Assembly (NCBI GenBank): GCA_947258805.1
Contig: CAMYJV010000011.1
Span: 1 to 20,657, forward strand
Origin: an uncultured Gammaproteobacteria bacterium
GTDB taxonomy: Bacteria > Pseudomonadota > Gammaproteobacteria > GCA-2729495
Reading direction: 5' to 3'
DNA length: 20,657 nucleotides
The notes under the pieces are model-generated. The model did no database searches. It was given only the letters and a program-made list of their open reading frames with translations, and was not told the DNA's origin. Of the stretch, positions 17,231 through 17,260 are shown piece by piece (positions within the stretch are counted from its first letter, which is position 1; each line of letters starts with the position of its first letter). Both the position numbers and the translations under genes were made by a program.

Positions 17231-17260
17231 TTAGCACTCTAAGGACCCGAGTGCTAAAAT
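17231..17260 (+). promoter_or_regulatory. CIRCE operator coinciding with the rpoH promoter
   Basis: TTAGCACTC (17231-17239), a 9-bp spacer and GAGTGCTAA (17249-17257) form the exact CIRCE consensus, extended by one more base pair on each side (17230 and 17258). CIRCE is the binding site of the heat-shock repressor HrcA, whose folding depends on GroEL. The same bases provide a promoter: TTAGCA (17231-17236) as -35 and TAAAAT (17255-17260) as -10, with 18 bp between. HrcA bound here would cover both boxes. Predicted transcription start is about 17267, with a leader of only about 20 nt. Confidence 0.93.

Follow-up and report, generated by a model that had tools for sequence, protein, structure and literature searches.

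Which signals set the transcription of rpoH, the gene of the heat-shock sigma factor sigma32, when an HrcA operator lies directly in front of it? Textbook accounts of sigma32 control come from E. coli, in which rpoH transcription makes up one layer among several. The question is raised by a stretch of 20,657 nucleotides from an uncultured gammaproteobacterium (contig CAMYJV010000011.1), the whole of which we call the window. Between ftsX and rpoH it carries a CIRCE, the predicted operator of the repressor HrcA, in the midst of what look like promoter elements. The features of the locus are the following.

16262-17176, + strand: ftsX, the gene preceding rpoH (TIGR00439, 311 bits).
17177-17212, + strand: AT-rich stretch ahead of the promoters, a possible UP element by inferred role.
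17215-17221, + strand: sigmaE-type -35, GGAACTC; all 78 clade loci (defined below) have an AAC between -17 and -10 relative to the CIRCE.
17231-17257, + strand: CIRCE, predicted HrcA operator; arms at 17231-17239 and 17249-17257, no mismatches.
17231-17236, + strand: sigma70-like -35, TTAGCA, identical with the start of the left CIRCE arm.
17238-17242, + strand: sigmaE-type -10, TCTAA, made of the last two bases of the left arm and the first three of the spacer.
17248-17250, + strand: putative start of the sigmaE transcript, from the spacing to the -10.
17252-17260, + strand: sigma70-like extended -10, TGCTAAAAT, to which the right arm and a following AAT contribute.
17266-17268, + strand: putative start of the sigma70 transcript, from the spacing to the -10.
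17271-17278, + strand: ribosome-binding site, AAGGAGGA, assigned from the sequence.
17288-18151, + strand: rpoH (sigma32), 287 aa (TIGR02392, 400 bits, cut-off 323).

The gene order is ftsE, ftsX and rpoH, the latter two lying on the same strand with a gap of 111 bp. The encoded RpoH is identical to E. coli RpoH at 173 of 282 aligned residues (61%) and keeps the QRKLFFNLRK box. Of the residues L47, A50 and I54, which we take to be tied to the chaperone control of sigma32, the first two are kept and I54 is replaced by V; chaperone control acting on the sigma32 protein probably remains in this bacterium. Elsewhere in the window (9703-11214, - strand), we observed a fatty acid desaturase ORF, the C-terminal part of which also matches the transposase family DDE_Tnp_ISL3.

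The CIRCE reads TTAGCACTC-N9-GAGTGCTAA, agrees with the consensus at 18 of 18 positions and is separated from the start codon of rpoH by 30 bp. It is the sole match in the window with up to three mismatches allowed, and 100 dinucleotide shuffles of the window gave none. The perfect CIRCE that an earlier note on this DNA had claimed ahead of rpoH is thus confirmed, as is the consensus ribosome site that it had placed after a short leader. Furthermore, the arrangement recurs in related genomes, where the note had suggested looking for it. Among the nearest rpoH loci (the best 80 of 548, from contigs representing one genome per species), 77 carry a CIRCE of at least 16/18 before rpoH, 57 of them at 18/18, 15 at 17 and 5 at 16. 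Among the titles of these relatives are Woeseiaceae, Steroidobacteraceae, Steroidobacter agaridevorans and Thioalkalivibrio sp. XN8, and the highest RpoH identity is 78% (locus L001). Two loci titled Rheinheimera tuosuensis and Klebsiella pneumoniae (L024 and L053) have an rpoH region of the window's kind, and these MAG names look wrong. In what follows, the 77 relatives and the window together are the clade, with 78 loci.

L056 was counted as a miss; its contig ends 37 bases before rpoH, its first bases recur where a second contig of the same genome ends, and a CIRCE is present there. The other two misses are L065 and L071, whose genomes (G005 and G006) yielded no CIRCE at up to two mismatches and no HrcA. 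About 65 bases upstream of rpoH, both show CTTGAAA and then a run rich in C, which by eye resembles a sigma32 promoter, as if self-activation stood in place of HrcA control.

Which promoters, then, does the operator cover? The earlier note had named one, with TTAGCA as -35 and TAAAAT as -10 at 18-bp spacing (17231-17260), and this part of its claim stands. With TG ahead of the second hexamer and 9 of 12 matches, it is the single sigma70-like site in 16900-18400, where shuffles give a mean of 0.2; the window hence contains what defines a sigma70 promoter here, hexamers at 16-18 nt or an extended -10. The -35 cannot be judged apart from the CIRCE, since it is identical with the start of the left arm; the -10, as TANNNT, is kept in all 78 clade rpoH loci.

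It is not, however, the sole promoter, as the note had assumed, because a sigmaE-type promoter is also fused with the operator. This element, GGAACTC-N16-TCTAA at 17215-17242, had been overlooked, and it presents the GGAACTT-like -35 and the TC-type -10 about 16 nt apart by which we recognize sigmaE promoters. In the window, GGAACT-N17-TCTAA has one match without mismatch and four at up to two mismatches, against 1.1 expected. As the TC of the -10 comes with the CIRCE, the evidence for sigmaE consists of the -35 and the NAA only. Both are conserved in the clade: GGGAACT-like bases stand 11-17 bases upstream of the rpoH CIRCEs, and A occupies the second spacer base in 100% of them and the third in 97%. 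The register of the -10 (+7) is constant in 78 of 78 loci, whereas shuffling just the 50 bases upstream leaves a mean of 1.2 such loci. The -10 pentamer is TCTAA in 48 loci, TCAAA in 13, TCCAA in 10, TCGAA in 5 and another in 2. The conserved CIRCE spacer at rpoH is accounted for by the sigmaE-type -10 that runs into it.

The CIRCEs in front of groES in the same relatives provide the comparison. Spacer AA at bases 2-3 is found in 76 of 78 rpoH CIRCEs vs 0 of 25 groES CIRCEs, the T that closes the TANNNT after the right arm in 78 of 78 vs 0 of 25, and AAC at the place of the -35 in 78 of 78 vs 3 of 25. Since the groES CIRCEs lack both signatures, these are specific to rpoH and no part of what HrcA needs. 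The sigma factor itself, RpoE (TIGR02939), was found in 29 of 30 relatives chosen for closer study. Of the 29 rpoE loci, 26 had a resolved upstream region; 23 of these 26 score at least 9/11 for a sigmaE-type promoter, compared with 2.1% per sequence in shuffles. They mostly read GAACTT-N16-TCTAT, so that the fifth -10 base differs from that of TCTAA at rpoH.

These data bear on the reading that the CIRCE controls rpoH through one sigma70 promoter, with GGAACT..TCTAA arising by chance or serving a different protein. The TTAGCA-TAAAAT pair with its TG is indeed a fair sigma70 promoter, and the constancy of TANNNT in the clade is in keeping with this reading. Yet we consider it unlikely, because a GGAAC-type motif is locked in register to TCNAA at every clade locus, the spacer AA would otherwise go unexplained, the groES CIRCEs have neither motif nor AA, and E. 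coli rpoH possesses a similarly spaced P3.

The position of HrcA relative to sigma32 can be read from the other heat-shock genes. We picked 30 relatives from the 80, each with an rpoH CIRCE; that all 30 have one is no test, since they were chosen that way. HrcA was detected in 28 of them, among these the nearest (L001); in G199 and G203 no HrcA was detected and CIRCEs are present. At up to three mismatches, 23 genomes contain two CIRCEs, 5 contain three, one contains four and one a single site, at a threshold where a reversed control pattern gives up to 4 matches in some genomes. G196 has two rpoH-type CIRCEs, one of them identical in sequence to the rpoH site of G203, which may reflect contamination of the MAG.

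The HrcA operators lie mainly at rpoH and groESL, with a groES CIRCE in 29 of 30 relatives. Among the groES loci scored (26 of 30), 25 have a CIRCE and the 26th is a second groES copy; of the other four, three have a site close upstream by coordinates and G211 has none. A sigma32-like promoter, CTTGAAA-N13-CCCTATTA, directly adjoins the groES CIRCE in 24 of 25 cases. The grpE-dnaK genes, in turn, have a sigma32-like promoter and no CIRCE: of 22 resolved loci, 20 have such a site between hrcA and grpE, against 0.2 expected, and none has one before hrcA. A CIRCE upstream of hrcA was likewise found in none of these 22 loci. Autoregulation of hrcA was rejected, as only one of 31 hrcA loci has a CIRCE of at least 15/18 (L282 in G207, 17/18); L097 reaches 14/18, and both are among the 8 of 30 loci outside the resolved 22. 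In the genome of L282, groES is present twice, and RpoE gave no match. With CIRCEs at rpoH and groESL and a sigma32-like promoter at dnaK, HrcA would sit above sigma32.

Altogether, we favor, with a probability of about 0.72, the reading that 17215-17260 is a compact control node of rpoH, in which an HrcA operator overlaps a sigmaE-type and a sigma70-type promoter and from which HrcA-sigma32 wiring extends downstream. The sites, their registers, their conservation and the company they keep come from sequence comparison. On these grounds rpoH appears to be repressed by HrcA via an operator merged with two promoters, here and in most relatives checked, and the genome of the window would contain hrcA and rpoE as its relatives do. 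The proposal of the earlier note that HrcA controls rpoH is thereby strengthened, by the conservation of the CIRCE, by the HrcA of most chosen relatives and by the two HrcA-less relatives without a CIRCE; its single promoter and its purely serial circuit are not retained.

From this arrangement we infer HrcA binding, the use of each promoter and the direction of the signals as follows. HrcA on the CIRCE would lie over both promoters and hold sigma32 at a low level. Once GroEL is taken up by unfolded protein, HrcA would lose activity and rpoH would open to sigma70; upon envelope stress, sigmaE would also transcribe the HrcA-freed gene. Sigma32 from both promoters would then drive grpE-dnaK, which would need sigma32 alone. 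The groESL operon would need sigma32 present and HrcA gone, because its sigma32-like promoter abuts its CIRCE. New GroEL would restore HrcA and close the loop. The note had placed negative and positive control in series rather than in parallel. This would hold for grpE-dnaK, where only the sigma32-like promoter is found; a purely serial wiring is rejected for groESL, which has both sites and would form a coherent feed-forward loop.

Transcription could also reach rpoH from further upstream, so that read-through from ftsEX would be its main source and the CIRCE-promoter unit a minor one. We found no terminator-like site between ftsX and rpoH, and the short gap on the same strand would suit such read-through. 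We nevertheless think it a poor prospect, as conservation of the operator and of the two promoter elements far exceeds that of the flanking DNA. The GC content falls to 0.25 at 17160-17199, against 0.6-0.8 around it in this GC-rich window.

The proposed node ties rpoH to the presence of hrcA, and the two were compared across a draw of 185 genomes from the class to which one relative belongs, with an rpoH match in 171, HrcA in 130 and a CIRCE (up to two mismatches, anywhere) in 138. Among the best-scoring 150 rpoH loci, from 148 genomes, a CIRCE of at least 15/18 lies upstream of rpoH in 106 of 113 loci of hrcA-positive genomes vs 9 of 37 of hrcA-negative ones. Counted per genome, this is 106 of 111 vs 9 of 37 (Fisher p = 1.6e-17, kinship ignored). 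Shuffled upstream regions reached 15/18 in 0 of 150 cases, with a maximum of 14 (1 of 150). Five hrcA-positive genomes have no CIRCE of 15/18 at rpoH; unfinished MAGs may be behind the CIRCEs without detected HrcA, such as those that 9 of the 37 hrcA-negative genomes keep at rpoH. The sigmaE-type signature extends into the class, with 86 of 115 loci passing the test and 70 of 115 in the register of the clade; spacer AA is weaker outside the clade (42 of 115). Among hrcA-negative class loci without a CIRCE, a strong sigmaE-like site occurs within 200 nt in 5 of 28, where 0.1 would be expected.

Two controls for kinship agree in direction with this joint occurrence. The first used a tree from about 100 RpoH residues, which is too weak, and gave two pairs, not significant. 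The second used three genes in 40 genomes, namely 25 of the 37 hrcA-negative ones (those above 1.7 Mb) and 15 near hrcA-positive ones, with ftsX found in 28 of 40 and ftsE in 22 of 40. Here, 3.4 of 5 pairs agree and none oppose (p 0.125-0.25, not significant). The supported pairs being too few, the comparison suggests, and only suggests, a joint loss of hrcA and the rpoH CIRCE.

Individual loci of the class show variants of the site. L202 (G123), scored as being without a CIRCE, has a perfect right arm, a near left arm and a visible 8-base spacer, and L184, L213 and L258 have a second CIRCE-like repeat beside the first, before rpoH. In L233 (G087, no HrcA detected), the CIRCE has decayed: the left arm, which is part of the sigmaE-type promoter, is kept, and the right arm has slipped. 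A broken site of this kind in a genome without detected hrcA gives substance to the view that the CIRCE of the window, too, is left over from a lost hrcA. For the window, we hold this to be very improbable, as its site is intact at 18/18 and HrcA is found in nearly all chosen relatives, including the nearest.

It is hardly credible that the perfect inverted repeat works through the mRNA, by affecting its stability or translation, instead of serving as an operator in the DNA. This reading was rejected on the putative start sites, near 17249 and 17267, from which a transcript would contain the right arm at most; moreover, HrcA and CIRCE co-occur, the leader and 5' coding region (17267-17500) showed no better folding than its shuffles (z +1.13), and Rfam gave nothing above cut-off for the rpoH 5' end, with a sub-threshold IRES_Bip match only. 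Folding and Rfam likewise lent no support to an RNA thermometer of the E. coli type, or to another known RNA element, in this 5' region.

The fused node of sigmaE promoter and CIRCE seems to be new: no description of a sigmaE promoter inside a CIRCE was found in the literature searched, which mostly does not cover subscription journals. As far as the same search goes, it is also new how general the pairing of CIRCE and rpoH is among hrcA-bearing members of the class. A study by Permina and Gelfand on beta-, gamma- and epsilon-proteobacteria may already list CIRCE at gammaproteobacterial rpoH.

Beyond this locus, we would give even odds to a wider proposal. In hrcA-bearing gammaproteobacteria, the usual rpoH switch would be a merged element of about 45 bp that combines GroEL/HrcA load, sigmaE envelope stress and basal transcription, and the P3 promoter of E. 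coli would be its remnant after the loss of hrcA and the CIRCE. If so, the textbook sigma32 circuit would be the reduced form of an older two-layer circuit. If HrcA gates rpoH in most of these bacteria, repressor and sigma factor would form one hierarchy, and the sigmaE input to rpoH would pass through a GroEL-sensing gate; loss of hrcA would leave rpoH driven by sigmaE and sigma70 without heat-shock repression. More generally, part of a promoter can lie hidden in the spacer of an operator as familiar as CIRCE.

Among known systems, E. coli shares the promoter. RpoE transcribes rpoH from P3 and was discovered through it, according to a review (PMC8103513). At the E. coli K-12 locus, we found GAACTT-N16-TCTGA 121 nt before the start codon, a GAACTT-N16-TC-type promoter like that of the window; unlike the window, E. 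coli has no CIRCE there (best score 10/18). Matches to the HrcA model occur in 7 of 14 control genomes, none of which is that of E. coli.

Geobacter sulfurreducens shares the operator. A CIRCE upstream of its rpoH was predicted computationally in 2004 (Rodionov et al., PMC545781), so that the guess that comparative genomics might already have proposed such an arrangement was right for this species. The same TTAGCACTC-N9-GAGTGCTAA stands there 51 nt before the start codon. In contrast to the present case, this bacterium belongs to another lineage and its hrcA-grpE-dnaK-dnaJ genes also carry a CIRCE, and the accessible portion of that paper describes no overlap with a sigmaE promoter (PMC545781).

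In B. subtilis and H. pylori, the operator, the repressor family and the assumed GroE-dependent sensor are the same as here. GroE raises the DNA binding of HrcA, and in the accepted model misfolded protein titrates GroE (PMC6032397). In these bacteria HrcA acts on chaperone operons, and H. pylori does so without sigma32 (PMC6032397), whereas in the window the operator sits on the gene of the heat-shock sigma factor itself.
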